This document shows positions 1 to 16,703 of a stretch of 19,292 nt of DNA, piece after piece (positions within the stretch are counted from its first letter, which is position 1; the number at the start of each line of letters is the position of its first letter). The notes below the pieces were generated by a model, which saw only the letters and a program-made list of their open reading frames with translations, searched no databases and was not told where the DNA came from. The translations under genes and the position numbers were made by a program. The DNA lies in contig NZ_JAIWON010000011.1 of assembly GCF_020216885.1 (NCBI RefSeq), positions 1-19,292 of the forward strand, written 5' to 3'. The DNA is from Zymomonas sp. (GTDB lineage: Bacteria; Pseudomonadota; Alphaproteobacteria; Sphingomonadales; Sphingomonadaceae).

Positions 1-965
1 CAAAGCCTCGGTATAAAGCCGCGCTTTTCCTGCGGTCGCCGCAACGGTGGGATACCCACTGCCATTGTCGCCACCGGACATCACCGAATTGGCACCGCCT
101 TCGCCACGATGGGCATTACTGCGCAGCCATGCCAAAGCCCCTGCGGTTTCCCGCGCGACAACCGCCCCATCTCCGGGGATAGCTGCGAAATTACCAGTAA
201 AACGCGCTTCAATATCGCGTTTCAATTCCTGACCGGCACGCGCCAACTGATAGGCATGTTCGTCCCCACGTCCGGCATTATGCACTGCCCGATCAGTCGT
301 CGATGTCCCGACAACTTTGGTCATGATCTGGGTATAATTGCCAACCCGAACCGTAGGTTGACGGCTTTCATTGGCAAGATCAGCGCCTTCGACCTGCTTA
401 TTTTGGGCATTTGCACTGGCCAGATTGTCAGTCTGCCATTCAGTATAGGTATTTTTGGCTGTCGTTTGACCGATAGCCGTTACAAAAGGTGTTTCCAGAT
501 TGTTACCGCAAAGGCTCTTTATCCCTTGCTTCCTTACATTCCTGCAAGGCTCAGACTATATCATCGCTTTCGCGGACGGCACTCGTGTCAGCATTACTGC
601 CATAGACAAAAAACTGACTGAATCTTTACCCCGAAATTTCCGGCATTTTCAGTAAAAATGAAAAGAATCATACCCGCTTCTTTTTCGAAAATAACGGCAT
701 CAGTTTTATCGTTTTTTTGTCGATAGGCTCGGCTGTTAGTCGTTACACCTTCAAGAGATTTTCATCTCAAGCTTGGCTCGGGATTATCCTCGTCTATTAC
801 GGTCGGACGTTCCCCGAATTCACCGCCTTTTCATTTAATGCAGTTTTAAAAACTACATTAACGGACCAAGACTCCAGTCGGGCTGATATTATAAATAATA
901 TCGGAAAGATCTTCACGAATACCGACACGCGAATAGGTTTGGACGGTATTAGAGGCAACAGACAT
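1..965 (-). CDS. Major capsid protein (SU10-type), two exons, 3' end outside window
   Basis: Shell-forming subunit of the phage head. The gene reads as exon 1 at 965-876 (30 codons) and exon 2 at 495-1 (165 codons, open to the window edge), joined across a 380-base group I intron. Exon 1 begins MSVASNTVQTYSRVGIRED and ends in YNISPT; exon 2 begins ETPFVTAIGQTTAKNTY and continues through NYTQIMTKVVGTSTTDRAV and AYQLARAGQELKRDIEA. This N-terminal pattern (REDLSD, YNISPT-ETPF, EWQTD, VGNYTQI, ELKRD) is what I recognise from SU10-like capsid proteins. Start ATG at 965 follows AAGGA about 10 bases upstream. It lies 26 bases after the scaffold-like gene, the usual portal-scaffold-capsid order. Unspliced, translation adds only GVLVR and stops at 860-858. 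The family assignment is from memory of motifs and is fairly sure; the C-terminal half is not visible. Confidence 0.85.
496..875 (-). ncRNA. Group I self-splicing intron inside the capsid gene, no endonuclease ORF
   Basis: The 380-base intron lies between capsid codons 30 (ACT) and 31 (GAA). The 5' exon ends in U and the intron ends in G, as group I splicing requires. Minus-strand core: P-like element AATTCGGGGAAC (820-809) and Q-like AATCCCGAGCCAAG (785-772) pair as P4 (817-813 with 782-778). P5 is CGTC/GACG (809-806, 794-791). P6 is GCC/GGT with a GAAA-capped P6a (768-755). P7 is GACTA (741-737) with TAGTC (558-554), the latter inside GATATAGTC. P3 is GGCGGT (827-822) with ACAGCC (736-731), one mismatch. 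P9 is CCTTGC/GCAAGG (549-544, 529-524). P1 pairs exon GACT with guide GGTC, giving a U-G pair at the splice site. P2 is a long hairpin at 835-861. About 150 bases between the P8 candidate (707-725) and the P7 3' strand are a peripheral extension. No homing-endonuclease motif is seen. Confidence 0.9.
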
Positions 966-990
966 AATTCAAAATTCCTTGAAAAGTAGA

Positions 991-1845
991 TTATTTAAAA
1001 AGGGCGTTCATTGCCGCCGCGGCTGACCGGACATCACCGCTTTTGCGAAGCTGCCCCAATGATTCATTCAATTTCCGGCTTTTGGCTGCACCATAAGGCT
1101 GGGATGTTCCCGGAACCGCGGTTTTTCTCGATATTTTGGCCGATTTGATAGCCGCCGTCTTACCCTGTTGTAGGGCATCCCATTTTTCGGATTTTCTTCG
1201 CCATTCATGGGCTTTTTTCAAAGCCATAATGTCGTTGGAATCAGCCGCGGCTAGAACATGATCGGGATAACCAAGATGGCGACCCGTCTCTTCAAAAGCT
1301 GCTAAAATAGCCGGTCTCTGATTGTCATCCGCCCATTCGGGGAAGATTGACATTAAACGCTGATGTTCCCCCTGCGCCCAAGCCTGTCTGGCAGCCAATT
1401 CAGCCATTTCATTCTGGCGAGAAATCTGGATAACTTCCTGAACAATTTGGTCACGCTTGGCTGTTAAGTCTTCATAACTTGCCAATTGTGCGGCATAGCT
1501 TGCCGGATCACTGACCAATAATTGCGGATCGGGTTTTTTGGGTGTGATCGCTTCGGCATATTTAGCAAGCTGGTCAGCATAATGGTAATGCAAGGCTCGA
1601 CAATGTTCTTGCCAAGCCGCGCTCATATCCCGATGACCCTGATTATTTTGACCAGTGTCACCCGCCATAGCCGCCGCCCCCATATTTTCCTGATCATCGG
1701 ATGCCTGATCGGATGGCGGCATATCCGCATTATTTCCAGCCATCGGATCATCTTGATCCGGCGCAAGATTAGCTTGCAATGCCTCGGCAGCATCCTGAAT
1801 AGACCGACGGGGTCGCTTCAAGACGGCACCTTTTATATTTGTCAT
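991..1845 (-). CDS. Putative phage scaffolding protein
   Basis: A 284-residue protein between the portal-side genes and the capsid gene, the normal place for a head scaffolding protein, which guides capsid assembly and is then removed. The N-terminal third (about 30-75) is acidic and low in complexity, rich in D, N, Q and A. The rest is mostly predicted helix with many A, Q, E and K residues. The basic C-terminus, rich in K, R and S and ending AAAMNALFK, would suit capsid binding. I see no catalytic motif. I chose ATG at 1845 because AGGA lies 9 bases upstream; a TTG two codons earlier would sit too close to that site. Function is inferred from position and composition only. Confidence 0.6.
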   Translation of the reverse strand: MTNIKGAVLKRPRRSIQDAAEALQANLAPDQDDPMAGNNADMPPSDQASDDQENMGAAAMAGDTGQNNQGHRDMSAAWQEHCRALHYHYADQLAKYAEAITPKKPDPQLLVSDPASYAAQLASYEDLTAKRDQIVQEVIQISRQNEMAELAARQAWAQGEHQRLMSIFPEWADDNQRPAILAAFEETGRHLGYPDHVLAAADSNDIMALKKAHEWRRKSEKWDALQQGKTAAIKSAKISRKTAVPGTSQPYGAAKSRKLNESLGQLRKSGDVRSAAAAMNALFK

Positions 1846-1967
1846 TATCAATATTCCTGAATTACCAACCGGTAAAATGGGCGCAGAAAATCACTCCGGT
1901 GACTTCATTTCCCGCCACCCAGCCGGTTTTATTTCAATAAATAGAATGGAGACCTTGATTGATTGGC

Positions 1968-2267
1968 CTACAGCCAGCGACGTTTTCGATCGGGTAAAGT
2001 CTCTATTTTTCGGGCATGTTCTCTGGCCTGATCGGCCAATTGCCCATCAGCAATAATTACTTGAATCACGTTATCAATTTGCCCCACAATTCGATTAGCC
2101 ATCGCCAAACGTAACAATTTTCGGTCAGCTTCGGCTTCCCATGGGGCAATCTCGGACATACGCTGGATATAACGGGTACCGATTTCTTGCAAAATAGCTT
2201 TCAACCCGCCCTTTTCTTCATAAAAGGCTTTCCAACGCCTTGCCCGCAAAATAGGATCTTGCTCCAT
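1968..2267 (-). CDS. Small phage protein of unknown function
   Basis: A 99-residue, charged, probably all-helical protein that I do not recognise. Its start overlaps the portal stop codon by one base (TAATG), with GGA six bases before the ATG, so it is probably translationally coupled to the portal. It contains two W residues near the N-terminus (RRWKAFYEEKGG) and ends in a basic KIETLPDRKRRWL. The place between portal and scaffold suggests a minor head or DNA-packaging accessory protein, but no motif supports a specific role. A gap of about 120 bases (1846-1967) separates it from the scaffold-like gene. Confidence 0.6.
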   Translation of the reverse strand: MEQDPILRARRWKAFYEEKGGLKAILQEIGTRYIQRMSEIAPWEAEADRKLLRLAMANRIVGQIDNVIQVIIADGQLADQAREHARKIETLPDRKRRWL

Positions 2268-4456
2268 TATTTATCCAATGCGCCCCCTGCTTTATTTTGT
2301 GGCACCCTATCCCCTCTTTTATCCGCTGGAATATTTTTTCCGGCTTCTGCCAATTTTAAAGCGATCTGGTAATTACGATCAGCCGTTTCCTTGGCAAGCG
2401 AGGCTTCAAAATCGGAACGTTGTCTTGCCAGAATAGCATCTTCTTCGGCTTTTTCGCGTATCAAAGCCAAACGCTGTTTATGCTCTTGCTGTTGCATCTC
2501 CAGCTTGGCTTCGGCTTCCTGCTTTTTTAAAGCAAATTCAGCCCTATTCCGTTCCTGATCGGCAGCCATTTTCTGCCCTTGAAGATTGATCTCCTGTCGG
2601 GCTTTCAACTCTGTATAATCGGGATTATTTCCTACACTACCAGCAGAATTTTGCGGAATAGACGAATTATTATTCACAGGATTTTCTGCCGGATTGCCCG
2701 ACAAATCGGCAGCGGGATCAATCAGATAATCCGTCGGATTGCCCAAACCACAATCACGGATCATCGCAGCAATATTGTTATAAATCTGCTTGGTACCACT
2801 TAAACCAACGGTCAAAGCCTGCTGCTGAATAGATAACAACTGCTGACGATAGGCCAAACGCTGATCTTTCCGGCCTGATCCCAATCCGACCGTGACACGC
2901 ACGCGCATATCTGGCGGCCACAAGGCCGGATCGACTGTTTTATAAAGCCCTTCCACTTTGATAGCCATCGGATCACCCGATGCAATCATCAGCCATAATT
3001 TTTTCTGGAATAATCGCCCCAGACTTTGCGCAAAATTGCGGGCAACATATTCTTCCATTTGCTGCCCTTGCGCTTGAAGCAAAGCCTGACCAGTGGCTGT
3101 CTTATTCAGGCTATCTGCATCCAAACCTTGATTAAGACGCGTAATGCCCGTTCGGCTTTCCTGCGCTGCCTGCATATATTCGATCATACCCAAAGATTTT
3201 TGGATATCGAAACCGGCATTTAACGGCGTTGGCGGAATACCACCCCGATAACGGACAATCGCCCCAGGCCTGATGGTCAATAAATCGTCAAAAGTATCTT
3301 CGGTTAAACCATCGACATTCACGGCCATGCGTGGCGCGTTGGTCTGGTAAACCCCATCCAATGCCTGACGCATCAAAACAGATTTAACCCTTTGGATATC
3401 CATCACCTTTTCGGCCAAAGAATTACCAATCATCCGATGGGCGCGTGGGAAAGGTGTCCAGACAACAAAGGGGGCTTCATCGACTTCTTCAATCGAAAGT
3501 AAAACGTCTTTTACCCGAAAAATCTGCAACAATTCGGCAATGCCATCGCCATCACGATCTATGCGGACATATTCTTCATATAAAAGAACCTCGCGGTTGG
3601 CCTGATCGCTACTGCCTGACAGAAAGGACTCATCCCTCCATCTAGCATTTGAACGGCCGTCACCATTTGAAAAGCTATTATCGGTGGGTAAGCCCTCGAC
3701 AATATCGCGATCAAATCCCATTGAAATAAGGTCAGACAGGGTCTTGTAACTGACATGCGCCTGATAATCGGCCTCATCTTCATGGCGCGTTCTGGCTGAA
3801 ACGCGATATTCTTCCGACGGAATTGGCATATCAATATAGCGTTTTTGCTGCTGATAACGGGTAACTGTTACTTCATACTGATGGCTACCATTGTCACCAT
3901 TCAAGGTAATCTGAATATCGGGATTATCCTCGGCCTCCATCAACAAAGCCGCCAAAGCATTATCATCCAACGTAATATGACGGATCGTGGCACGTCTTTC
4001 CGATAAGACCGCCGTTTTGATAATGCCTATTTTTTCAATCAATCCCGACTGGATCCAGTCATGCAGGATTTTATACCCGTCCTGCCCATGCATAAAAGCA
4101 TAGCTGACGGCTTCGGTCGCATCATCGGCATCCTGTGCCTGATCGGCAGCTACTGGCTCGAATTCAATCACCCGATCACCAGATACAATTGTCCGCAACA
4201 GGCTGATCGTCATATAATCGACAACCTCGGCTACATCGGGACTAACAACCTGACTCCGACCGTCTTCTTCATCCCCAAAGGGACGCGCTTCATAAAAGTC
4301 GATCGCATTTGCCTGATCTTCGGCCAGCAAACTATTATGCCAGCTTTCGGCTTGATCGGCTTTTTCTCGCAAAATCGCTAATAATTCACGATGAGGCAAC
4401 AAGGATGCCACCTGTTTTTCTTTTAAATTTATATTGCCATCAATATCCAAAGACAT
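2267..4456 (-). CDS. Phage portal protein (P22-like size)
   Basis: Forms the dodecameric ring at one capsid vertex through which DNA is packaged and to which the tail attaches. At 729 residues it is close to the P22 portal (725). The N-terminal region has the portal-like run RSQVVSPDVAEVVDYM (about 67-82). The middle contains LAEKVMDIQRVKSVLMRQ and a YMQAAQESRTGITRLNQG segment, recalling portal stem and crown regions. From about residue 615 to 705 is a long Q-, E-, K- and A-rich stretch that looks like continuous helix, reminiscent of the P22 portal barrel. Start ATG at 4456 follows a strong AGGGGG site 6 bases upstream and is 42 bases from the large terminase stop. Order and size make the call fairly secure; the exact subfamily is not certain. 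Confidence 0.85.
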   Translation of the reverse strand: MSLDIDGNINLKEKQVASLLPHRELLAILREKADQAESWHNSLLAEDQANAIDFYEARPFGDEEDGRSQVVSPDVAEVVDYMTISLLRTIVSGDRVIEFEPVAADQAQDADDATEAVSYAFMHGQDGYKILHDWIQSGLIEKIGIIKTAVLSERRATIRHITLDDNALAALLMEAEDNPDIQITLNGDNGSHQYEVTVTRYQQQKRYIDMPIPSEEYRVSARTRHEDEADYQAHVSYKTLSDLISMGFDRDIVEGLPTDNSFSNGDGRSNARWRDESFLSGSSDQANREVLLYEEYVRIDRDGDGIAELLQIFRVKDVLLSIEEVDEAPFVVWTPFPRAHRMIGNSLAEKVMDIQRVKSVLMRQALDGVYQTNAPRMAVNVDGLTEDTFDDLLTIRPGAIVRYRGGIPPTPLNAGFDIQKSLGMIEYMQAAQESRTGITRLNQGLDADSLNKTATGQALLQAQGQQMEEYVARNFAQSLGRLFQKKLWLMIASGDPMAIKVEGLYKTVDPALWPPDMRVRVTVGLGSGRKDQRLAYRQQLLSIQQQALTVGLSGTKQIYNNIAAMIRDCGLGNPTDYLIDPAADLSGNPAENPVNNNSSIPQNSAGSVGNNPDYTELKARQEINLQGQKMAADQERNRAEFALKKQEAEAKLEMQQQEHKQRLALIREKAEEDAILARQRSDFEASLAKETADRNYQIALKLAEAGKNIPADKRGDRVPQNKAGGALDK

Positions 4457-4498
4457 ACCACCCCCTTCGGGGCAGAAAGCTATTTCCAGCCCGTTTCA

Positions 4499-5785
4499 TT
4501 AAAATATTCCTTTATTGCTATAGGTGATTTTTCGGCTGGTAACCGGAGGTTCCCAAGCGATTGCAGCTAAACCGAAAGCATCAGCAGAATGACTCGACCA
4601 GTCATGGTCAGGCCCTAACCCTATCCCGCGTATTTCATCCCGTTTTTCATGATACCAGCCAAGGGCTTCCAAACCGCCATGGCAGTGATTTTCATCAAAC
4701 CACATCTGGGGAAATAACCGGCGAGCCGCTTCAATCCGCTGCATGGCAGCGCCAGCCCCTTGATTAGGGATAACCCGCACCGGAAATCCGGCTTCACGTA
4801 ATGCGCCTTCATAGGTTGTCGAGACAATTTTATCATGCTGTGCGCCATCATGCGGCAGGATGCACAAAGCCCCGCCATAATCATGCGAGCGCAACCAATG
4901 AAGATGGGCAGATAAGGGCTGCCCTTGCGCTTCATAATGATCGAGGAAACGGATTTCCCGCCCGACATATTGGACAATCCATATCGCGGTAGCATCAGCC
5001 TTAGCACCCGTGCCGCCGATATCCCAAACTGCCCGCAAGGTCATCAATGGGTCAGCGGCTACCATACCTATACGCTTTTCAGATCGGGCTTTGGCCAAGG
5101 CTTGGGCATAATAAGCCCCCTCGGTTATCTCGGCATACCCCCCTTCCCATATATGGCGGTATTTATCAGGGTCATTCGTCAGACAATCCCGTCTTTCCTG
5201 ATCCAACGGCGAAGGAAACCACGGGTTATTTTCCCAATTAGCCTGAACCACAACAGCACCAGTCGGTGGTGTTTCGCCGCGCAACATCCGGTCAACCGGA
5301 TCAGTTTTGAAACGCGGATTCCACGAAAACCATAATTCAGAATCAATTGTCCTGATCGTTGGCCTTAAAAGCTCTAAAGATCGTTGGGACAGCGTTTGTG
5401 CTTCCTCGACCCATGCCCGTGAAAAGCCCTCCAAAGACTTGATGCTTTCGGCGGTATGGTCTTGCATCCCTTGAAAGATGATAACCCCATCTCCGGGCGT
5501 TCTAATATGGTCACGAAAGACACGGAAACCGACATTGCTTCCTAAATTATAGGCCGATAATTTCGCTTCGATCAGCCTTTTAGCTGAATCTTTCAGAGAT
5601 TTTTGTACTTCGCGAATACAGACAGCTCGCAATCCCGGAAGGCGAAGACAATCTTCAACCAACATTTCCGCGAAAAAATGGGATTTACCTGAACCTCTTC
5701 CACCATAAGCCCCTTTATAGCGTGCCGGTTTTAATAAAGGTCTAAAGACTTTGGCTGTCGGAATTCTCAAAGCCGGAAAAGACAT
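4499..5785 (-). CDS. terL: Phage terminase large subunit
   Basis: ATP-driven DNA-packaging motor and nuclease that cuts concatemeric phage DNA and pumps it through the portal. Walker A is GGRGSGKS at about residues 28-35. Walker B with catalytic glutamate is AWVEEAQ at about 124-130. The C-terminal RNase H-like nuclease half shows WDIGGTGAKADATAIW, then LPHDGAQHD, and near the end DHDWSSHSADAF, consistent with acidic metal-binding positions. The 428-residue length fits the PBSX-like large terminase group. The ATG at 5785 overlaps the small-subunit stop by one base (TGATG); a GTG one codon upstream is also possible. GGAA lies about 8 bases before. Tight coupling to the small subunit is typical. 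Confidence 0.93.
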   Translation of the reverse strand: MSFPALRIPTAKVFRPLLKPARYKGAYGGRGSGKSHFFAEMLVEDCLRLPGLRAVCIREVQKSLKDSAKRLIEAKLSAYNLGSNVGFRVFRDHIRTPGDGVIIFQGMQDHTAESIKSLEGFSRAWVEEAQTLSQRSLELLRPTIRTIDSELWFSWNPRFKTDPVDRMLRGETPPTGAVVVQANWENNPWFPSPLDQERRDCLTNDPDKYRHIWEGGYAEITEGAYYAQALAKARSEKRIGMVAADPLMTLRAVWDIGGTGAKADATAIWIVQYVGREIRFLDHYEAQGQPLSAHLHWLRSHDYGGALCILPHDGAQHDKIVSTTYEGALREAGFPVRVIPNQGAGAAMQRIEAARRLFPQMWFDENHCHGGLEALGWYHEKRDEIRGIGLGPDHDWSSHSADAFGLAAIAWEPPVTSRKITYSNKGIF

Positions 5786-6291
5786 CACATCTTTTCCATA
5801 TCAACAGGATCGTTATCCCATTCCGAAGAGAGTATAGGCCTATCAGAGGCGTTATGCTCCTCACCCACAATGACGCGTTCTATACGCGCCAAAATAGGCG
5901 CACCATTTTGGCCGGTAATTTCTGCGGTTTGTTTGTCTCGCCATTGTTTGGGGCGGCGATTCCGTAACCAGAAACTACAGGCCGAAATATCGGGCGGAAG
6001 ATGCTCAACAAATTCCACGACTTCAGGCTTACCTGAAACCATCACCACTTTTTGGCAATCATAACTATAACCCACAGCTCTTTGATAGAGCGAAGCCTCA
6101 ACCCGATTATCGGCCGCCGCTTTCCCAATTCTGACCGCATTGGCAAAATCAGGATACTTCAAAACCCAACGATTGATCGTGCGTTCGCTTACACCAAAAA
6201 AATCGGCAATATCGCGATTGGTTGCCCCTAACTTGGCAAGGTTGCGCGCCTGTATAATATATTCAATTTTAAAAGTAGAAGAAGCCGTCAT
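5785..6291 (-). CDS. terS: Phage terminase small subunit
   Basis: DNA-recognition partner of the packaging motor. The 168-residue protein has an N-terminal helix-turn-helix (TNRDIADFFGVSERTINRW, about 24-42), followed by YPDFANAVRIGKAAADNRVEASLYQRAVG, a pattern I associate with small terminases, then a short PKQWRDKQTAE segment. It overlaps the large subunit start by one base. I chose the ATG at 6291; an in-frame TTG at 6336 would add a cysteine-rich leader that looks non-coding. No convincing Shine-Dalgarno site precedes the ATG. Instead a perfect 9-base inverted repeat abuts it, which is unusual. It is the first gene of the visible head block, and 84 bases separate it from the glycosylase gene. 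Confidence 0.85.
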   Translation of the reverse strand: MTASSTFKIEYIIQARNLAKLGATNRDIADFFGVSERTINRWVLKYPDFANAVRIGKAAADNRVEASLYQRAVGYSYDCQKVVMVSGKPEVVEFVEHLPPDISACSFWLRNRRPKQWRDKQTAEITGQNGAPILARIERVIVGEEHNASDRPILSSEWDNDPVDMEKM

Positions 6292-6317
6292 GTAAATTCT
6301 ATTAAAACAGAATTTAC
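6292..6317. repeat. Perfect inverted repeat directly before the terS start codon
   Basis: Arms GTAAATTCT and AGAATTTAC (9 bases each, 8-base spacer) match perfectly and end one base before the terS ATG. On DNA it could be an operator for a phage regulator; in mRNA it would form a hairpin occupying the usual ribosome-binding position. No recognised binding-site consensus. Confidence 0.6.
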
Positions 6318-6375
6318 AACAACAAGGAGTAGGCAAAAATAAAATGATTAGAAAAAATTGAGCATTAGAATAAAA

Positions 6376-6996
6376 TCAGCAGAAATTTTTATTTCGATAT
6401 TGATGCCATAAAAACAAAGCCATTATACTTCTATAAGGACGGAATATATCCCCAAGACCACGGGTTTCTTTCATATCAGGCCTATGGGATAGTTGATAAA
6501 GATATCCGGTGGCAATTCTTATGCCTAAATCAGCCGCAGGCCAAATATCCAACCGCCCTTCGGCAAAAATAAGGTAATTTTCAGCCGTCCAACGACCAAT
6601 CCCATACACAGACATCAAAAGATCGACTGCCTCATCATCGTCTTCGGGCAAAGCGAGCAAATCAAGCCCCAAGACAGAGCGCCTCGCCAAATCTTTTAAA
6701 TAGGAAATCTTGGACGGCGACAATCCACATTGCCGCAAAATTGACCCGTCAACAGACAAAAGCCGATCAGCCGTAATTTCCCCGATAGAATTGATAAGTT
6801 TTTGCCATATGCCATCCGCAACTTTGGTATGAAGCTGTTGCCCGACAATCACCCGAGCCAGACTAGAAACACCTCTTTCGACGGCTTGATAAAATGGATA
6901 ACCAAATTGGTGCAGCCCTTGTTGTATCAAGTGATTTTCGGCAGCCCATTGATCCAGATTTTGTTCAATATTCTGTTGGCACAAAGATTGTTTCAT
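6376..6996 (-). CDS. alkA: DNA-3-methyladenine glycosylase, HhH-GPD family (AlkA-type)
   Basis: Base-excision repair enzyme that removes alkylated purines from DNA. The 206-residue protein has the helix-hairpin-helix LLMSVYGIGRWTAENYL at about 127-142, which binds the DNA backbone, followed by WPAADLGI. D156 there is the expected catalytic aspartate (equivalent to D238 of E. coli AlkA). VIVGQQLHTKVADGIWQKL at 49-67 matches the family's helix near the N-terminus (usually IxxQQxS). There is no C-terminal Fe-S cysteine cluster, which argues against MutY or Nth. It is shorter than E. coli AlkA because the N-terminal TBP-like domain is absent, common in bacterial homologues. ATG at 6996 follows GGA by 4 bases. 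It is a host gene at the border of the phage block. Confidence 0.85.
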   Translation of the reverse strand: MKQSLCQQNIEQNLDQWAAENHLIQQGLHQFGYPFYQAVERGVSSLARVIVGQQLHTKVADGIWQKLINSIGEITADRLLSVDGSILRQCGLSPSKISYLKDLARRSVLGLDLLALPEDDDEAVDLLMSVYGIGRWTAENYLIFAEGRLDIWPAADLGIRIATGYLYQLSHRPDMKETRGLGDIFRPYRSIMALFLWHQYRNKNFC

Positions 6997-7121
6997 CTTA
7001 TCCAGTCACTATCTTTCTATCGTCAGTAAAATTTTTTATTGTTACTCATGCACAAAGTTTTATTCTATGTTATTTTAAATTCTTTTCCCAAATAAGTTAT
7101 TTTCCTGATAGACCCCCGTGA

Positions 7122-7148
7122 TTGAACCTAGAAAGATCGACACCATAT
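7122..7148 (+). promoter_or_regulatory. Putative heat-shock (sigma-32) promoter of lon
   Basis: TTGAAC at 7122-7127 and CCATAT at 7143-7148 with a 15-base spacer resemble the RpoH pattern (CTTGAA ... CCCATnT), 43 bases before the lon ATG. lon is a classical heat-shock gene, so the site makes sense, but it is called by eye. Confidence 0.5.
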
Positions 7149-7191
7149 CTATGAAAAGGTGTGAGCATTTTGCCGCCCCAGTGGAGTTGTG

Positions 7192-9618
7192 ATGAAAGAA
7201 ACCCTTCCCGTTTTACCGCTGCGCGACATCGTCGTATTCCCTCATATGATCGCGCCGCTTTTTGTCGGTCGTGAAAAATCGGTAGCAGCGCTTGAAAGCG
7301 TGATGGCAGCAGAGAAGACTATTTTTCTCGTTTCCCAACGCGACCCAGCTGAAGAAGACCCTAATCGTGAAGCGCTTTATGACGTTGGCGTGGTCGCGAA
7401 TGTGTTACAACTTCTTAAATTACCCGACGGCACCGTGCGGGTGTTGGTAGAAGGCCGGAAACGCGCAAAAATAAGCGACATGGATGATTCCAGTGGCCAT
7501 CTAATCGCCGAAGTAGAACCCCTTGAGAATACCTCCGTCGAAAATGACGAGGTCGAGGCTCTGATGCGCTCAGTCAAGGATCAGTTCGAACATTACGCTA
7601 AACTCAATCGCAAATTACCGGGCGATATTGCCCATGAAATCAAAGAGATTGATGCCCCGTCTCGACTGGCTGACGCGATCGCGGTTAATTTGGCTGTCAA
7701 AGTGGCCGACAAACAGCCGCTTCTTGAAGAGTTGAATCCCTTTAAAAGACTGGAAATGACGTTTGGCCTGATGGAAGGCGAGCTTGGCGTTTTACAGGTT
7801 GAACGCAAGATCAGAAGCCGCGTCAAACGCCAGATGGAAAAGAACCAGCGGGAATATTACCTCAATGAACAGCTCAAAGCTATTCAGAGAGAACTTTCCA
7901 CAGGTGAAAGCAGCGGGAATGGTGAAGAAGAAGAGGACGGCGACGAGCTCTCTGAATTCACGCAAAAGCTGAATAACCCGAAACTGCCGAAAGAGGTGAA
8001 GGCCAAGGCCACTTCCGAATTAAAAAAATTGCGGACGATGGGCGCTATGTCTGCCGAAGCAACGGTGGTGCGTTCTTATCTTGAAACCTTGTTAAATATG
8101 CCATGGGGCAAGAAAACACGGGTTAAAAAGGATATCATCGCGGCTGAAAAAATTCTTGGCGAAGAACATTTCGGCCTTGATAAGGTTAAAGAACGAATTG
8201 TCGAATATATCGCGGTTCAGGCTCGCACGAACAAGTTGAAAGGACCCATCCTTTGCCTTGTCGGGCCTCCGGGTGTGGGTAAAACCTCCTTAGCACGCTC
8301 TATTGCCAAGGCCACGGGTCGTAACTTTGTCAGACAGTCGCTCGGCGGCGTTCGTGATGAAGCTGAAATACGCGGCCATCGTCGGACTTATATTGGCTCG
8401 CTTCCCGGTAAAATCGTCACCAATATCAAAAAAGCAGAAAGCTTTAATCCGCTTTTTCTGCTTGATGAAATTGACAAATTGGGACAGGATTCCCGTGGTG
8501 ATCCGGCTTCAGCCTTGCTTGAGGTTTTAGACCCCGAACAGAACAATAAATTTCAGGATCATTATCTTGAAACCGATATTGATCTTTCGGATGTCATGTT
8601 TGTGGCAACGGCCAATTCTTTGAATTTGCCAGCTCCTCTAATCGACCGCATGGAAATCATCCGCCTCGAAGGTTATACCGAAGACGAAAAAATCGAGATC
8701 GCGACCAGCCATCTTTTACCGCGTCAAATCAAATCCCATGGTTTGAAAAAAGGCGAATTTACGGTTGAAACAGGCGCTATCCGTGATCTTATCCGCTATT
8801 ATACTCGTGAATCGGGTGTTCGTGCGCTGGAACGTGAATTAGCTAAAATCGCCCGTAAAGCCTTGCGGCGTATTCTTGAAAAGAAAGCTAAAACGATCAC
8901 GGTCACGGCTAAAAATCTGAGCGATTTTTCGGGTGTCCGGCGGTATAAATTTGGTATTTCTGAAAAAGAAGATCAGGTCGGTGTCGTCACGGGTCTGGCA
9001 TGGACAGAAGTCGGCGGCGAATTGCTGACGATCGAAAGTGTCACTGTTCCGGGTAGAGGCAATATCCGCACGACAGGTAAACTTGGCGATGTGATGAAGG
9101 AGTCCATTCAAGCGGCGTTGTCCTTCGTCAAATCACGCGCCCCCTTCTATGGCATTAAACCCAGCATCTTTACTCGGAAAGATGTCCATATCCATTTGCC
9201 GGAAGGTGCCGTTCCAAAAGATGGACCTTCAGCAGGTATCGGTATTGTGACAGCGATTACCTCGGTTTTGACAGGCGTTCCAGTGCGCCGCGATGTCGCG
9301 ATGACCGGCGAAGTCACCCTAAGAGGTCGCGTCCTGCCGATCGGTGGATTGAAAGAGAAACTTCTTGCTGCCCTAAGAGGCGGGATCAAAACGGTGTTAA
9401 TTCCGGAAGAAAATCAGAAAGACCTGATTGAATTACCAGAAAACATTAAAAAGGGTCTGAAGATTATTCCGGTATCGCATGTTGATGAGGTTCTGGCACT
9501 CGCTTTGACTGAAAAGCTTGATCCTATCGACTGGAGCGAAGCGGATGATCTGGCGGCTTTCCCGCCGACAGCTTTGAACCATCATGCGTCAGATGCTGTC
9601 AGCCCTGTGCATCACTGA
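7192..9618 (+). CDS. lon: ATP-dependent protease Lon
   Basis: Cytoplasmic AAA+ serine protease that degrades misfolded and regulatory proteins; forms hexamers. At 808 residues it is full length. The N-terminal substrate-binding domain starts LPVLPLRDIVVFPHMIAPL. A coiled segment near 200-225 ends in EKNQREYYLNEQLKAIQREL. The ATPase has Walker A GPPGVGKT at 358-365 and Walker B FLLDEIDK. The protease domain shows KDGPSAG with catalytic S680 and GGLKEK with catalytic K723, one residue off the E. coli numbering (S679, K722). ATG at 7192 has GGAG 5 bases upstream; the preceding GTG is too close to that site. It appears monocistronic, with its own promoter-like site and a strong terminator. The C-terminal tail (ADDLAAFPPTALNHHASDAV) extends beyond the conserved domain. 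Confidence 0.98.
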   Translation: MKETLPVLPLRDIVVFPHMIAPLFVGREKSVAALESVMAAEKTIFLVSQRDPAEEDPNREALYDVGVVANVLQLLKLPDGTVRVLVEGRKRAKISDMDDSSGHLIAEVEPLENTSVENDEVEALMRSVKDQFEHYAKLNRKLPGDIAHEIKEIDAPSRLADAIAVNLAVKVADKQPLLEELNPFKRLEMTFGLMEGELGVLQVERKIRSRVKRQMEKNQREYYLNEQLKAIQRELSTGESSGNGEEEEDGDELSEFTQKLNNPKLPKEVKAKATSELKKLRTMGAMSAEATVVRSYLETLLNMPWGKKTRVKKDIIAAEKILGEEHFGLDKVKERIVEYIAVQARTNKLKGPILCLVGPPGVGKTSLARSIAKATGRNFVRQSLGGVRDEAEIRGHRRTYIGSLPGKIVTNIKKAESFNPLFLLDEIDKLGQDSRGDPASALLEVLDPEQNNKFQDHYLETDIDLSDVMFVATANSLNLPAPLIDRMEIIRLEGYTEDEKIEIATSHLLPRQIKSHGLKKGEFTVETGAIRDLIRYYTRESGVRALERELAKIARKALRRILEKKAKTITVTAKNLSDFSGVRRYKFGISEKEDQVGVVTGLAWTEVGGELLTIESVTVPGRGNIRTTGKLGDVMKESIQAALSFVKSRAPFYGIKPSIFTRKDVHIHLPEGAVPKDGPSAGIGIVTAITSVLTGVPVRRDVAMTGEVTLRGRVLPIGGLKEKLLAALRGGIKTVLIPEENQKDLIELPENIKKGLKIIPVSHVDEVLALALTEKLDPIDWSEADDLAAFPPTALNHHASDAVSPVHH

Positions 9619-9636
9619 TAAAAAACACTTACCCCG

Positions 9637-9674
9637 TATCCCTGCTAGTCAAACCGGCTGGCAGGGATATTTTT
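9637..9674 (+). terminator. Rho-independent terminator of lon
   Basis: A 12-base-pair stem (TATCCCTGCTAG with CTGGCAGGGATA, one G-T wobble), a 9-base loop and a run of five T begin 18 bases after the lon stop codon. Confidence 0.92.
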
Positions 9675-9745
9675 ATAATTTATTCTGCTATTTGAAAAAA
9701 CTCTGGACAAAGCTTCGGGTTTTCCTTACTGCTTCGCAGCATAAA

Positions 9746-9820
9746 GGGCGCGTAGCTCAGTGGTAGAGCACTGTGTTCACATCGCAGTGGCCGCTGGTTC
9801 AATCCCAGCCGCGCCCACCA
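9746..9820 (+). tRNA. tRNA-Val (anticodon CAC)
   Basis: Cloverleaf read by hand: acceptor GGGCGCG with CGCGCCC (7 pairs), D-stem GCTC/GAGC, anticodon stem CTGTG/CGCAG (one G-T pair) with loop TTCACAT giving anticodon CAC at 34-36, T-stem GCTGG/CCAGC with loop TTCAATC, discriminator A and encoded CCA. It decodes GUG. It lies 127 bases downstream of lon on the same strand, past the terminator, so it needs its own promoter. Confidence 0.96.
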
Positions 9821-9908
9821 TCTCCCACTTCATCTGAAAATGGATAACCGGTTTTATATCTTCCGGTATGATTAGCGTTATTTCAGCGCCATTTTTTGTC
9901 GTCAAAAA

Positions 9909-11150
9909 TTATTTGCGACGATCAGGGAACGGCCATACAGGCCAAGCATAGGATGCAGGAATATATCCATAATCAAAGACTTCGGTCGCGAAAGTCTCAT
10001 GTCCCTGTAATTCAACGCGAACAGTCGGTGCCAAGCTCCCGCCAGCAATGACTTTGCCGCTTTTTGGATCAATGATTTCATTGATAAAAGATTCAACCAA
10101 GCCATTGTTCATAATATAATGAGCATAGGCCTCGGTCGGCTGTGAGGCAGGACCACCGAGAACAAGGCCGGAACCATTCAGTGGCTCATAGGGGCCAAAA
10201 ATACCATTTTCGGAAACAAAGCCATAAAGACCATCGGAACCGGTCAAACCATCGGCATAAGTCGAATCATGACTGATCGTAAAGAGATAGGTCAAACCAT
10301 TTTGGAAAATGACATGAGGCCGTTCCATCTGGTCATTGACACCAAAAGCTGTCAGCAAAGGCGGTAACAGTTCCCATTCGGTGCGATCCGGCGATAAACA
10401 ACGCGCGATACCAATAGAAGCCGAACATAAATTGGCATCTTTTGGAACTACCGTATTAGCCGGAACAGGACCAATTTCATCCTCGCCTATATCGTCTTCT
10501 CCACGGACAGTGGCAACATTGGCCTCGAACAAAGCATAGGTCTCACCATCCTCAGGATTGATGAAAACATGAGGATCACGGAAATTCCAGAGATTATTTT
10601 CTGCATAATTTTGATAAAACAGACCATCTGCCTGAAACAAATCCGTTGACTGGTCAAAACCCTTGAACCAGACACCTTCACTATCCGCATAAATGCGGCC
10701 TTTCGTGACAGAAGCGACGGCTTCACGGACACCATTCTTGTCGAATAAAGTCGAAGTAAAGAAGGTTTCAACCTGATTGCGAGAACCTGGTGCCATAATC
10801 GTGCCGCCTGACCATTCTGCCGTGCGGGTATTGGCTGATTCTTGCAAAAGATGGCCACCATAAATCCAGCTCTTACCGTCTTTGGAATAGAAATAGCCGA
10901 TACGGGCATGAGAATGACGGTCATTCCACGGAATATTGCGGTCAGCGACCAAAGAGAAGATAACATTCCAGCCTTTAAAACTGACAGGATTGCCATTGAT
11001 ATCCCGTAGCGGCCAAGTGTCCCACAGCCATAAGTCATCACGCATAATCGGAAAATCAGTACCAATTTCTGGCATAGAGGTCGTCAAATCAAATTTATTC
11101 ACTTTCATCGCTTGGGCTCGCGTCCAGCGACTGGCATTAAAATTAAACAT
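9909..11150 (-). CDS. invB: Extracellular sucrase / beta-fructofuranosidase, GH68
   Basis: Hydrolyses sucrose to glucose and fructose outside the cell (also called sacC). The 413-residue protein is a GH68 five-bladed propeller enzyme. Its catalytic nucleophile is D44 in LWLWDTWPLRD, the transition-state stabiliser D192 in NFRDPHVF, and the acid/base E276 in NDQMERPHV. It is a close paralogue of LevU next door. At the site where LevU has SHHS (H296, H297) this protein has SHDS (H294, D295), which might contribute to hydrolysis being favoured over polymer formation; that is inference. There is no N-terminal signal peptide, and known Z. mobilis enzymes of this pair are exported without one. The ATG at 11150 lacks a clear Shine-Dalgarno site. 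A strong hairpin precedes it in the gap from levU. Confidence 0.93.
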   Translation of the reverse strand: MFNFNASRWTRAQAMKVNKFDLTTSMPEIGTDFPIMRDDLWLWDTWPLRDINGNPVSFKGWNVIFSLVADRNIPWNDRHSHARIGYFYSKDGKSWIYGGHLLQESANTRTAEWSGGTIMAPGSRNQVETFFTSTLFDKNGVREAVASVTKGRIYADSEGVWFKGFDQSTDLFQADGLFYQNYAENNLWNFRDPHVFINPEDGETYALFEANVATVRGEDDIGEDEIGPVPANTVVPKDANLCSASIGIARCLSPDRTEWELLPPLLTAFGVNDQMERPHVIFQNGLTYLFTISHDSTYADGLTGSDGLYGFVSENGIFGPYEPLNGSGLVLGGPASQPTEAYAHYIMNNGLVESFINEIIDPKSGKVIAGGSLAPTVRVELQGHETFATEVFDYGYIPASYAWPVWPFPDRRK

Positions 11151-11194
11151 TTAAAGTAATATACACTTTCTTAAAATTATTATTAGGAATAGGA

Positions 11195-11230
11195 AGGGTG
11201 TCATCAGGGCAAGAATGCCCTGATGACCCT
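11195..11230. promoter_or_regulatory. Strong hairpin between levU and invB
   Basis: Eleven perfect pairs (TCATCAGGGCA with TGCCCTGATGA, 4-base loop), continued by four AGGG/CCCT pairs after a two-base bulge. In the levU-invB mRNA it lies 76 bases after the levU stop and 44 before invB. No U-run follows in the direction of transcription, so it is more likely an RNA-processing or stability element, or a weak attenuator, than a full terminator. Confidence 0.7.
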
Positions 11231-11306
11231 TAAGTTGAAATAAACTCAAAAGATGATAACGCTTTATTCAAGCATAATCAGAAACGTCATTTACAATGAA
11301 TAAATC

Positions 11307-12578
11307 TTATTTATTCAATAAAGACAGGGTTGCCGCAGAATTAGAAGATTCATCTTCTGCCAACCACTCGATCTGTGGCGGAATATAGCCATAACCCTTC
11401 ACTTCGGTGACGAAGCTGCGATGGCCAACTAACTCCAACTTGATGGTCGGTGCCAAGGTGCCACCATAACGATAGACATTCGGGTCAGAACTCGGAATGG
11501 TATCAATAAAGGAGGTCACCAGCCCATTCGTCATCACATAATGGGAATAAGCCTGATAAGGCTGTGAAGATGGGTTACCCAGCACCAAACCGGAAGCATT
11601 CAGCGGTTCATAAGGGCCAAAAATGCCGTTTTCAGAAACAAAGCCATAAACCCCATCAGGACCCGACAAACCATCGGCATAAGTCGAATGATGACTGATC
11701 GTGAAGAGATAGGTCAAACCATTCTGGAATACGACATGAGGCCGCTCCGTTTGGTCATTGACACCGAAGGCCGTTACCAAAGGTGGTAACAATTTCCATT
11801 CGGTACGGGCTTCATTGGTGGCCTGTGCAATACCAATGGCAGCAGCACAATAGCGAGCGCCATCAGGCGTTTCGGTTTTCGGTGGAACAGGGCCAATTTC
11901 CTCTTCGCCAACGGCGACCGTGCCGCGCTGCATGGCAACATTACCTTCAAACAAGGCATATGTTTTGCCATCTTCTGGGTTAATGAAGACATGCGGATCG
12001 CGGAAATCCCAGAAATTATTTTCTGCATAATCAGCATAATAAAGGCCATCTGCCTGAAACAGATCGGTTACTTTATCAAAACCGTCAAACCATACCGATT
12101 TATCATCAGCATAGATGTAGCCCTTGCACTGGGCAGGAACGGATTCTGACGGCGTTTCATTGACAGACGTAAAGAATACTTCGACAGAATTGGCCGTACC
12201 CGGTGCCATAATCGTGCAACCAGACCATTCCCAAGAACGCGGATTGGCGCCATCTTTCAGAAGATGACCACCAAAAATCCAGTTGCTTCCACCACGTGAA
12301 AAGAAATAACCAATTCTGGCACCATCATTGCGATTATGCCAACCATATTTCGTGCGATCAGCGACCAGAGCAAAGATCACCGACCAACCTTGGAAGCTGA
12401 CAACCTGACCGTTAATATCGCGTAAGGGCCAAGTGTCCCAAACCCAATATTTATCGGTCATGACAGGAAAGTCATAATCAATGGTAGGCATAGTCGCCGT
12501 GGGATCATCGGTATGCACTTTCATAGCATCCGCACGAGTCCACAAGCTCGGCTCTGCAATGCCTGCTTTATTCAACAT
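11307..12578 (-). CDS. levU: Levansucrase, GH68
   Basis: Secreted enzyme (also called sacB) that transfers fructose from sucrose to make levan and also hydrolyses sucrose. The 423-residue protein carries the nucleophile D48 in WVWDTWPLRD, stabiliser D194 in DFRDPHVF, acid/base E278 in NDQTERPHV and H296 in FTISHHSTY. W47, D194, E278 and H296 are positions known to matter in the Z. mobilis enzyme, and the numbering coincides exactly when the start is the ATG at 12578, which has AGGA 8 bases upstream. A longer frame reaching 12686 is rejected for that reason. There is no cleavable signal peptide, in line with the known signal-independent export. It is the upstream gene of the levU-invB pair (156 bases apart), likely co-transcribed. 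Confidence 0.97.
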   Translation of the reverse strand: MLNKAGIAEPSLWTRADAMKVHTDDPTATMPTIDYDFPVMTDKYWVWDTWPLRDINGQVVSFQGWSVIFALVADRTKYGWHNRNDGARIGYFFSRGGSNWIFGGHLLKDGANPRSWEWSGCTIMAPGTANSVEVFFTSVNETPSESVPAQCKGYIYADDKSVWFDGFDKVTDLFQADGLYYADYAENNFWDFRDPHVFINPEDGKTYALFEGNVAMQRGTVAVGEEEIGPVPPKTETPDGARYCAAAIGIAQATNEARTEWKLLPPLVTAFGVNDQTERPHVVFQNGLTYLFTISHHSTYADGLSGPDGVYGFVSENGIFGPYEPLNASGLVLGNPSSQPYQAYSHYVMTNGLVTSFIDTIPSSDPNVYRYGGTLAPTIKLELVGHRSFVTEVKGYGYIPPQIEWLAEDESSNSAATLSLLNK

Positions 12579-13055
12579 AAGAACTATCCTAATAAATGAT
12601 GAAATAAAGCCGAAAAAAGAGTAATTCTTGTTCTCGACTTTCAAAAAGGCAGAAATATTGAAATAGGCTGCCTTTTCGAAAGACACGCTTTAACGTCTCA
12701 AGCGAAGTATTATTTTTTTGGAAGACTTTACTTAAAGTTAAACTTATATTTTAAAATAAATTGAATATTTATATCAAAAACATAAAGCTATGTCTGATTT
12801 ATAAATGTTGAATTGTATCAATATGCCTCATTTTATGAGAAAAGAGACTAAAATTCTAAAAATAAATCTTTTGCACTCATATAAGTCTCCAATTTTATAA
12901 AATTTTTAAATAAAAATAGTATAAATCTTAATAAATATTATTTCACAACAAGTAAAAATGTTTATTAAAAAATATTTTTTTGTAAAATCATTTAACTTGA
13001 TAAATCATTGTATATTTTTTAATTTACAACATAAAAATAGATTTTTTATTTTTCT
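12579..13055. other. AT-rich region upstream of levU, no gene seen
   Basis: Leader and promoter region of levU followed by a very AT-rich stretch (about 12700-13055) with many A and T runs. Frames here are short and show no protein-like character. A small CGCTT/AAGCG hairpin lies near 12690. I could not settle on a -35/-10 pair for levU. Confidence 0.5.
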
Positions 13056-13274
13056 CTATTTTTTTAAAAATTTTGCCCGAGCTGGCTGCAAAATACCCAT
13101 TTTTTCAAAGGTTATTAGAAATCGTCTTGCCGTGGGTCTATCAAAGATATGACAGTCACGCGCTAATTTTTCTAAAGAAACAGGGCCATATTGTCTCCAA
13201 TATTCCAGAATTTCTTTACGGCGTTTTGTTAGCTGTCCACTTGGCCTTCCCAAGTGTTTTGAGTGATAGTTCAT
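13056..13274 (-). CDS. Small putative winged-helix DNA-binding protein
   Basis: A 72-residue basic protein. After an N-terminal GRPSGQLTKRR it reads as a short winged helix: EILEYWRQYGPVSLEKLA, then a probable recognition helix around RPTARRFLITFEKMGIL, and a lysine-rich end (ARAKFLKK). The pattern suggests DNA binding, but I do not recognise the family. The ATG at 13274 has only a weak AAGAA upstream. It is divergent from another small HTH gene 149 bases away, in an AT-rich stretch that contrasts with the flanking metabolic genes, so recent acquisition is plausible. The third base composition is still that of a coding frame, not random AT-rich DNA. Confidence 0.6.
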   Translation of the reverse strand: MNYHSKHLGRPSGQLTKRRKEILEYWRQYGPVSLEKLARDCHIFDRPTARRFLITFEKMGILQPARAKFLKK

Positions 13275-13400
13275 AATATATTTCTTGTTATCTATCCAAT
13301 AGCCTTAATATTCTGGATATTATTACAACAAGACAATATCATTTTTATAAAATTTAACATTTTGTTTATATACTAATTTATATAAAGATTACCTTCAGCC

Positions 13401-13424
13401 TCACTTATTACTGAGATAAGGTGA
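13401..13424 (+). promoter_or_regulatory. Hairpin covering the start of the small HTH gene
   Basis: TCACTTAT (13401-13408) pairs with ATAAGGTGA (13416-13424) with one bulged G. The right arm contains the AAGG part of the ribosome-binding region and ends at the first base of the ATG, so folding would hide the start site. Confidence 0.4.
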
Positions 13425-13729
13425 TGAGACAAAAAGAGATTATTGCCAAATGGCTTTACAGCATCCGAGACAAAATGGATGTAAGCTGGGCAGAATTAGC
13501 ACGTAGAGCTAATATAAAGGCCGCAACAACGCTTTCACGCGCCGTCGATATGAATCATCATTCGGTGATGTCTGTCAAAAATCTTGAAGCTATAGCGCAA
13601 GCCGCGGGTATGCCTTCTATTCTTGATTTCTTACTATACCAAAGCCAAAAATACCAAATTTCAGAAAATAAGATAGATCAAATTATCGCTTTTTTACAAG
13701 AAATCGATATAGGTAAAAAAAAAATTTAG
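13424..13729 (+). CDS. Small helix-turn-helix protein
   Basis: A 101-residue protein with an N-terminal HTH-like unit (VSWAELARRANIKAATTLSRAV, about 19-40) and a following helix pair (NLEAIAQAAGMPSILDFLLYQ) typical of small Cro/CI-type (XRE-like) regulators. The C-terminus is charged and helical, ending in GKKKI. I chose the ATG at 13424 over a GTG one codon earlier because the GAG and AAGG motifs lie just upstream. It faces the Lrp-type gene across a 45-base convergent gap and is divergent from the 72-residue protein. The target is unknown. A phage-type or toxin-antitoxin repressor is possible, but no partner gene is visible. Confidence 0.65.
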   Translation: MRQKEIIAKWLYSIRDKMDVSWAELARRANIKAATTLSRAVDMNHHSVMSVKNLEAIAQAAGMPSILDFLLYQSQKYQISENKIDQIIAFLQEIDIGKKKI

Positions 13730-13774
13730 CCAAGATGACGAATTATTTAATAAGATTTTAGAAAAAAATTCTTT

Positions 13775-14236
13775 TTAAATATAGTTTGTCGGCAAAGCAG
13801 GTGATATTTTTACCGTCTCCATAGAAATATAGGCAGACATATCATAGAAGGCGACATTTTTTAGTATCTGTTTATAAATAACATCATAATATTCGACATT
13901 CGGCAAAGCTAATTTTAAAATATAATCAAAATTTCCAGTGAGCCTATGGACTTCGACAATTTCAGGGATAGCACTCACGGCTGCATGAAATTGATCAAGA
14001 TAATTTCCCGTGTGCAATCCCGTTTTAACAAGAAGGAAAATAGTTGTCGGAAGGTTGATCTTCTTCCTATCCAAAAGAGCAATGGTACCTTTTATATAAC
14101 CTTCCTCACGCAATCGCGCGACACGACGAGAGCAAGCCGAAACAGAAAGAGCAACCCGTTCTGCAATCTCGGCCAATGGCATTTCTGCGTTAGCTTGTAA
14201 TAAAGATAATATATGCCGGTCTCGGTAGTCGATCAT
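13775..14236 (-). CDS. Lrp/AsnC-family transcriptional regulator
   Basis: A 153-residue amino-acid-responsive DNA-binding protein. The N-terminal winged HTH is [19 protein letters not shown] followed by [28 protein letters not shown] (about 20-47), a close match to Lrp. The C-terminal RAM-type effector and oligomerisation domain shows the [13 protein letters not shown] strand-helix pattern. I start at the ATG at 14236 because family members usually begin M-x-x-x-D-R-x-IL; a GTG at 14251 is an alternative with a weak AGAAG upstream. It is divergent from a racemase-family gene, and Lrp-type regulators often control the divergent neighbour, here an amino-acid enzyme, and themselves. Confidence 0.9.
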
Positions 14237-14275
14237 CGAGAAATAATACACCGGCTCTTCTATAAGAACAATATT

Positions 14276-14315
14276 TTTGCATTTATTTTTAATAATAAGA
14301 AAATAATTTGCATTT
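14276..14315. promoter_or_regulatory. Candidate operator: direct repeat TTTGCATTT, 31 bases apart
   Basis: Two identical copies (14276-14284 and 14307-14315) in the space between the Lrp-type regulator and the racemase gene, about three helical turns apart, so they lie on the same face of DNA. Lrp-family octamers bind such phased, AT-rich sites. The assignment is inferred. Confidence 0.35.
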
Positions 14316-14407
14316 TTACTCTTAAATTCCTCAAAAAAAGCGCGTTTTTTTTACAAAAGGCATGGCATTCTTATGGCTATTAACAATCAGTTTCGTGAGA
14401 TTGGCAT

Positions 14408-15097: not shown

Positions 15098-15524
15098 GTT
15101 GTCTTGAGCACGGTGCTCTTCTTGGAAGATTAGAAGAGTATACAAGATAATCTAATGTAGAGTAGCTATCCCCGATCGAAATTCTACAATTTCGGTCGGG
15201 TGGTCGTTTATACGATATGCGGTATATATTTATTCGATTGCAACAGCGGATGGCTCTTTTTAATATTCATTAATTCCGAAGATAAACCTAGATAGAATCA
15301 AATCAATAATACTAAATATTACCCCATACTTCTATATAAATACCTAAATATCACATCGATTTTATTAAAAAATTGTCATAATAAAAATATTTAAAACACA
15401 GAATAGCAGATAAAATTATAAAATAGTATTTTTAAGTAAATAATAATAGAAAAATATATCAAAAAAATAATAATAACATTGTTCTTACTTAAGATTTTTT
15501 CTTCTTCATTTTTTACTAAAAAAT
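15098..15524. other. Non-coding gap after the racemase gene
   Basis: No convincing gene. It begins with a short GAGCAC/GTGCTC hairpin (15106-15118) right after the stop codon, then the longer hairpin listed separately. From about 15240 onward it is very AT-rich with stop codons in all frames. Confidence 0.6.
15171..15200 (+). terminator. Stem-loop downstream of the racemase gene
   Basis: CCCGATCGAAAT pairs with ATTTCGGTCGGG (12 pairs, one wobble; 6-base loop). A T-run is missing, so it may be a weak terminator, or protect the racemase mRNA end. Confidence 0.45.
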
Positions 15525-15564
15525 ATAAAAAAGGCTACCTCCCGATTTTTTCGGAAGGCAGCCT
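15525..15564 (-). terminator. Terminator of the glk-edd-zwf operon
   Basis: On the minus strand AGGCTGCCTTCCGA pairs with TCGGGAGGTAGCCT (two mismatches, A-rich loop) and is followed by TTTTT, 31 bases past the glk stop codon. Confidence 0.88.
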
Positions 15565-15594
15565 CTTAAATTCAGTTCATAATATTAAAAAATA

Positions 15595-16569: not shown

Positions 16570-16585
16570 GAATAATTCCTTTCTA

Positions 16586-16626: not shown

Positions 16627-16629
16627 CAG

Positions 16630-16659: not shown

Positions 16660-16703
16660 AATGAGATTACAAAGTCCAAGTCTACAATTTTTCGCTGGAA
16701 AAA

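Follow-up and report, generated by a model that had tools for sequence, protein, structure and literature searches.

A predicted group I intron without a recognized protein gene in the SU10-type major capsid gene of a phage-derived cluster of Zymomonas

The split capsid gene and the phage-derived cluster

The window, meaning the whole stretch of 19,292 nucleotides of Zymomonas sp. DNA that was analyzed (contig NZ_JAIWON010000011.1), carries part of a phage-derived gene cluster on its minus strand, in which a major capsid gene is interrupted by 380 nt (875-496) after codon 30. Four Zymomonas genomes, G000 to G003, were compared, G000 being that of the window. The window begins inside the capsid gene, and capsid residues 196-325 lie on contig C164 (L027 10000-9611); position 1 of the window and L027 10000 abut inside capsid exon 2 at residues 195/196, such that the assembly also breaks the gene. 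The features of the locus are as follows.

1..495, minus strand: major capsid gene exon 2, first 165 codons (PF17236 SU10_MCP, E 1.8e-41; phrog_1328, E 1.4e-44)
496..875, minus strand: putative group I intron, 380 nt (RF00028, 50.9 bits, E 1.6e-10 over 532-864; in all four Zymomonas genomes)
876..965, minus strand: major capsid gene exon 1, 30 codons, MSVASNTVQTYSRVGIREDLSDIIYNISPT (tblastn break exactly at residue 30/31)
991..1851, minus strand: head scaffolding protein (phrog_3927, E 1.7e-15)
1968..2267, minus strand: small protein of 99 aa within the cluster, no family match
2267..4456, minus strand: SU10-type portal protein (PF23899, E 1.2e-173)
4499..5788, minus strand: terminase large subunit (PF04466, E 1.4e-28)
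5785..6336, minus strand: terminase small subunit, at the edge of the phage-derived cluster (phrog_309, E 9.1e-45)

Exon 1 runs from 965 to 876 and ends in ...YNISPT, and exon 2 resumes at 495 with ETPFVTAIG; the insertion site is the strongly conserved N-terminal motif ISPT|ETPF of the SU10-type major capsid protein. A preliminary description of this DNA had placed an intron at 496..875 and had named ETPF as the residues expected next after ISPT; the coordinates and the resumption of the capsid are both borne out, and the same split is found in all four Zymomonas genomes. The capsid frame had also been given as 35 codons long, of which the position of the stop holds, but the length is made up of 30 exon codons and five intronic ones. 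The profile search of the joined protein that was proposed as a check agrees with the junction: a capsid profile built from five capsids, two of them the joined Zymomonas ones, aligns with 9ny2 (chain A, E 2.2e-71) over residues 1-323, through the junction.

The cluster spans approximately 16.4 kb in G001 (L024 2265-18699), 16.4 kb in G002 and 16.7 kb in G003; its window part is 1-6336 on the minus strand. In G001 the small terminase stands at one end and a tail protein of 868 residues at the other, and the cluster contains the small and large terminases, the SU10 portal, the scaffold, the capsid, an SU10 adaptor, structural proteins, a tail fiber with an S74 chaperone domain, and the tail protein. 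A defence-protein scan of three cluster proteins without a family gave no match. The same host flanks occur in G001, G002 and G003, and on one side, within the window, in G000; on the right side of G000 contig C164 ends inside the tail gene. The left host neighbors are presumably edd, glk, sucrase genes and lon, and those on the right are taken to be rrmJ, ppx and clpB; by Pfam, an HhH-GPD gene stands on the left flank and a GGDEF-EAL gene on the right. In the G003 stretch no counterpart was found of two host genes located between glk and the sucrases; we take them to encode a racemase and a regulator of the Lrp type.

Where dN/dS is computable the cluster genes give values of 0.00-0.16 (4 of 48 comparisons are saturated, and many dS values are above 1); the capsid is the most conserved cluster gene by protein identity among the genes compared, and the one internal stop among the cluster genes falls in a 142-residue protein of G003. 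Synonymous divergence between G000 and G002 is 0.33-0.53 for four cluster genes (window 991-6336), compared to 0.13-0.17 for lon, glk and edd and 0.11-0.27 for all eight host genes (window 6376-18527); the cluster values are approximately 2-4 times those of lon, glk and edd, which may reflect recombination rather than strictly vertical descent, or possibly weaker codon bias.

The region had been described as a prophage; a phage-derived gene cluster is indeed present, but its standing as a prophage is doubtful: as far as the searches reach it is structural-only, it has the same host neighbors in the genomes compared, and purifying selection acts on it. The G001 ORFs of at least 90 aa between the host flanks, several without a family, include no recognized integrase, replication or lysis gene, a search of L024 900-19001 gave no direct repeat of 18 bp or longer, and no tRNA gene was found in L024-L026; the G001 search therefore returned none of the hallmarks of an active prophage (integrase, replication and lysis genes, attachment repeats). 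The simplest reading of the sequences is that the cluster would be an immobilized phage relic kept by selection, and it is possibly domesticated. Alternatively, the cluster may be part of an ordinary, active prophage with its other genes elsewhere, a reading that would fit structural genes intact except for the single stop in G003, and the existence of related phages of 41-42 kb: in two such records, in which ten chosen ORFs were searched, an integrase and an HNH endonuclease are each present, one record also having an endolysin and the other replication and annealing proteins. This is considered unlikely, though it keeps an appreciable share of the probability, given the lack of such integrase, replication and lysis genes among the G001 ORFs, the lack of a repeat in L024, and the same host flanks around clusters of 16.4 and 16.7 kb in G002 and G003. 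The cluster is a candidate for a domesticated or gene-transfer-agent-like particle.

Fold and subgroup of the intron

The elements assigned to the intron are listed below in the order in which they would be transcribed; the assignments are drawn from the Rfam alignment and from the layout common to the four Zymomonas introns, except where other evidence is named.

864..867, minus strand: guide sequence GGUC (P1 3' strand), pairing with exon GACU 879-876 with a U-G at the splice site; invariant in all four
858..860, minus strand: UAA stop, in frame with exon 1 and following five intronic codons; in all four Zymomonas introns
835..861, minus strand: P2 hairpin, loop length varies
821..827, minus strand: P3 5' strand GGCGGUG (conserved-pair layout, fold)
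778..817, minus strand: P4 (817-812/783-778) and P5 (808-805/789-786) (Rfam alignment; P4 only at probability 0.11-0.20 in a simple fold)
747..777, minus strand: P6 (777-775/749-747) and P6a (768-755) (Rfam alignment; one P6a pair changed on both sides)
737..741, minus strand: P7 5' strand GACUA, R element (Rfam alignment and four-intron layout)
582..736, minus strand: P7.1/P7.2-type domain, 155 nt (11 base pairs changed on both sides among four sequences)
575..581, minus strand: P3 3' strand UGCCGUC (pair probabilities and enforced-fold energies, all four)
565..574, minus strand: P8, CGC-GAAA-GCG (four-intron layout)
554..558, minus strand: P7 3' strand UAGUC, S element (Rfam alignment and four-intron layout)
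508..549, minus strand: P9 (549-532) and P9.1 (529-508) (four-intron layout, pair-change analysis)

In the covariance search with the Rfam group I model, the window intron stands only 0.9 bits above the RF00028 gathering cut-off of 50 bits; the corresponding introns of the other three genomes reach 52.2, 50.1 and 45.1 bits, and the lowest value, that of the G002 copy, is under the cut-off. The match, together with the lack of any ATG ORF of more than 25 aa wholly inside the window intron, agrees with the earlier reading and supports identification of the 380-nt insertion as a putative ORF-less group I intron in an SU10-type major capsid gene. In an alignment of the four Zymomonas introns every listed pair from P1 to P9.1 is present in all four, and the P3-P8 and P4-P6 domains with the P7 pseudoknot stand in the correct order. 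The splice-site features described beforehand are likewise in place: the last base of the 5' exon is U (876), the last base of the intron is G (496), and the guide GGUC (867-864) provides the U-G pair in P1, with the U-G and the final G found in all four introns. P10 looks weak by eye, and the low probability of P4 in the simple thermodynamic fold, which cannot model the P7 pseudoknot, counts against the layout.

The structure including the P7.1/P7.2 domain comprises 106 pairs, with 99.3% of cells paired in the four-row alignment. Double-sided changes occur in 12 pairs, whereas shuffling gives 5.0 on average and none of 500 shuffles reaches 12; 'further pair types' amount to 26 versus 24.7 in shuffles, which is not above expectation (175/500). 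Eleven of the 12 double-sided changes are within the P7.1/P7.2 domain, the fold of which was computed on the same four-row alignment, and one is in P6a. P1, P4, P5, P6, P7, P8 and P9 show no variation among the four sequences; covariation is therefore silent on most core pairs, and it is the Rfam match and sequence conservation that support the core.

Extra helices P7.1/P7.2 between the P7 5' and P3 3' strands are the hallmark of subgroup IA. The P3 5' strand pairs with 581-575 over seven positions, six of which have a probability of 0.72-1.00 in all four introns; at the seventh, a G-C pair has 0.91-0.95 and a G-U pair 0.06-0.08. A P3 3' strand at 581-575 places P3 beside P8, with a short joining segment before the P7 3' strand, as in the Rfam consensus. 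Because the 155-nt P7.1/P7.2-type domain then lies between the P7 5' strand and this better-supported P3 3' strand, the modeled fold favors subgroup IA, with an IA-like layout. The preliminary description had argued against IA on the grounds that the P7 5' and P3 3' strands adjoin and leave no room for P7.1/P7.2; that argument is not supported, as the domain of the modeled fold occupies 582-736. No coordinates had been given for the adjoining strand, which is taken here as 736-731. A non-IA group I intron with P3 3' at that site would draw on five of its pairs that also stand in all four sequences, but it is improbable: one of its six positions is a mismatch, its pair probability is 0.00 in all four, folds in which it is enforced are 3.2-9.7 kcal/mol worse, and it leaves approximately 40 nt from the large stem to the P7 3' strand in place of the short joining segment of the Rfam consensus. 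Of the pairings P3 to P7 and P9 that were described in order, the order and the pairs are thus upheld in all four introns, and the adjacency of the P3 3' and P7 5' strands is not.

Conservation in Zymomonas, the uninterrupted gene and mobility

The capsid introns of G000 to G003 are 380, 412, 377 and 433 nt long; all four lie at residue 30/31, preceded by ISPT and followed by ETPF, and all start with GGA and end with CUG. In Zymomonas mobilis AN0101 (L112) the capsid gene and intron are letter-for-letter identical to those of G001. When the joined capsid was compared by tblastn to 178 loci, which overlap and are not counts of independent genomes, a match was found in 150; 136 of these give one alignment through the junction, and the remaining 14 are Zymomonas loci, 12 broken exactly between residues 30 and 31 and two being a contig piece without the N-terminus. 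The viral loci are the best 80 of 582 confirmed matches, and one of the two scan patterns spans the junction; a split capsid gene elsewhere could therefore be missed. Capsid profile searches covered 59 relatives and 396 genomes of the order. Outside Zymomonas, the capsids above the cut-off (4 matches in 3 genomes of the first set; 3 genomes of the second, one of them in both) begin between profile positions 2 and 11. The Zymomonas matches begin at 25, and G000 has a second piece, beginning at 168, on its other contig; among the 396, one more genome has a weak match under the cut-off. In G417, a 41-kb phage record, DIIYNISPTETPFVTAIG is encoded unbroken, as it is in some other loci.

Among the four genomes the core segment from the P2 3' strand to the P7 5' strand is 91-96% identical, and that from the P3 3' strand to the last G is 95-99% identical, compared to 50-75% at third positions in the 165 codons next to the intron and 57-92% in the P7.1/P7.2 domain; a core more conserved than third positions is the pattern expected of a working ribozyme. 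For G001 against G000, G002 and G003, dN/dS is 0.00, 0.00 and 0.07 in capsid exon 1 and 0.02, 0.01 and 0.03 in exon 2 (G000 over 165 codons), and neither exon has a stop in the stretches compared. It is on these figures that a decaying capsid gene, in which the intron would no longer splice, appears quite improbable; such decay would agree with a cluster in which no gene for independent phage life was found, but not with core segments so much more alike than third positions, nor with a capsid dN/dS of 0.00-0.07 and uninterrupted exons.

A second alternative without splicing is that each half is translated as its own polypeptide and the two then assemble, a case that the CB7 paper (PMC7344957) cites for NrdA of phage Aeh1. 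The conservation of a ribozyme core would not be needed for this, and exon 1 alone is 30 residues. Furthermore, no start codon (ATG, GTG or TTG) occurs in the frame of exon 2 from its last intronic stop to the exon itself; mechanical ORF calls begin in the window at an ATG at 324 (residue 88), and in G001 at a GTG that gives a fragment of 247 aa. Separate polypeptides are consequently considered very unlikely, and the calls agree with the earlier expectation that a plain ORF caller would miss the capsid N-terminus. Lastly, inteins also sit in conserved protein motifs, as this insertion does; however, an intein or translated insertion domain can practically be dismissed, as every frame of the four insertions has five or more stops (8 to 10 in each minus-strand frame of the 380-nt intron) and none of the four lengths is a multiple of three.

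The putative group I intron shows no recognized means of its own mobility. The longest ATG ORF wholly inside it is 25, 79, 39 and 30 aa in G000 to G003, and no homing endonuclease gene was found inside any of the four introns; the 79-aa (antisense) and 46-aa ORFs of the G001 intron have no PHROGs or Pfam family match, nor do the plus-strand window ORFs that reach into the intron from outside (109-621, 717-989). Within its own genome no second copy of the capsid intron was found beyond itself. Short parts of the intron align with 124 phage records at E values of no more than 1; the 20 phage matches listed cover 13-31% of the intron with best E values of 1e-7 to 0.4, and two of them overlie features annotated as intron-encoded HNH endonucleases. 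A plasmid search gave one record with 9% covered, and no relative covering more than 80% of the intron is present among the phage matches listed or in the plasmid match; the 2.3-kb region matches one phage record over 3% and no plasmid. Among 49 records or genomes of related phages and hosts, a Sphingomonas MAG alone gave a group I match; it scores 44.5 bits, under the cut-off, and does not lie in tRNA-Leu by a simple pattern. HNH endonuclease genes stand outside a recognized intron in two relatives of the cluster (L310 7787-8362, plus strand, and L312 14342-14872, minus strand); they might supply mobility in trans to introns of this kind.

Each of the four Zymomonas genomes has two group I matches, one in the capsid gene and one elsewhere. 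The second group I intron of the genome lies at L004 459-650 (plus strand; RF00028, 54.5 bits); this second intron has tRNA-Leu flanks in all four genomes by pattern search, and ARAGORN reported no tRNA on nine loci with group I matches. Other genomes contain six more group I matches (L008-L012 and L188), 161-213 nt long, of which five score under the cut-off.

Proposed working and relation to known systems

Taken together, the capsid gene very probably contains an IA-like intron without a recognized protein gene, whose splicing we infer and which, given the same host neighbors and purifying selection, has most likely been inherited with an immobilized, probably host-maintained phage relic. 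By analogy to group I chemistry, ribosomes would translate exon 1 and stop at the UAA five codons into the intron, which would keep them out of the catalytic core; the core would fold, guanosine would attack after U876, and the freed exon 1 would attack after G496. Once joined, the exons would encode a 325-residue capsid protein, a length taken from G001. An unspliced transcript could yield no more than a peptide of 35 residues or a fragment begun at an internal start, and the intron may therefore control virion formation, as was proposed beforehand. A broader hypothesis, speculative and rather doubtful at present, is that Zymomonas has a genus-wide domesticated SU10-type particle, gene-transfer-agent-like or killing, whose capsid would be gated by a vertically inherited, endonuclease-free ribozyme that lost its mobility and was kept as a post-transcriptional switch.

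Retention of an intron in the most conserved gene of the cluster sets a selfish leftover against an element kept for regulation, a question that can be tested in a harmless, tractable bacterium. A plain ORF call truncates the capsid and so conceals, in a bacterium used industrially for ethanol, what seems to be a conserved particle of phage origin. Searches of the Zymomonas literature found nothing on topic for a group I intron (2003-2026) or a gene transfer agent (2008-2026), and nothing on topic among the matches listed for Zymomonas mobilis prophages (2017-2026).

The capsid itself is closest in kind to SU10-type phage heads, of which 9ny2 and 7z45 are solved capsids; the capsid profile, which aligns with 9ny2 across the junction, also matches 7z45 (E 1.8e-53). 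The difference is that in Zymomonas the gene is split and the cluster holds structural genes only. Gene transfer agents are structural phage genes kept in the chromosome under selection, without integrase or replication genes; the conserved, syntenic, structural-only cluster resembles them in its gene content and in being kept under selection. The tRNA-Leu intron of the same genome likewise belongs to RF00028, but it lies in a tRNA gene and its model matches are 192-199 nt, therefore by size too short for a 155-nt P7.1/P7.2 domain. The T4 td, nrdB and nrdD introns, those of Twort and similar phage introns have the IA layout; compared by layout, they share the P7.1/P7.2-type domain and sit in other genes. 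Introns of this set are named in PMC3706429 and among the references of PMC7344957.

Other phages also carry introns in capsid genes. According to PMC3706429, the capsid intron of mycobacteriophage LittleE is 819 bp with an HNH endonuclease and occurs in one of six Cluster J phages, its splicing was shown by RT-PCR and protein sequencing, and its authors consider it most likely group I; a capsid-gene intron of lactococcal phage Tuc2009 is also mentioned there. LittleE and Zymomonas share insertion in the major capsid gene, a U at the exon end and a G at the intron end; however, the Zymomonas intron is 377-433 nt, has no recognized protein gene, interrupts an SU10-type capsid, and is present in four of four genomes at a chromosomal locus. 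Group I introns within major capsid genes are likewise described for Delta and Zeta crAss-like phages in PMC7886860; those are metagenome-assembled phage genomes, and the introns were found through endonuclease-type protein domains. Group I introns in capsid genes are thus already in print for LittleE and crAss-like phages; as far as the literature search shows, what is new is the host, the SU10-type capsid, and retention in four of four genomes without a recognized endonuclease, at a syntenic, structural-only locus.
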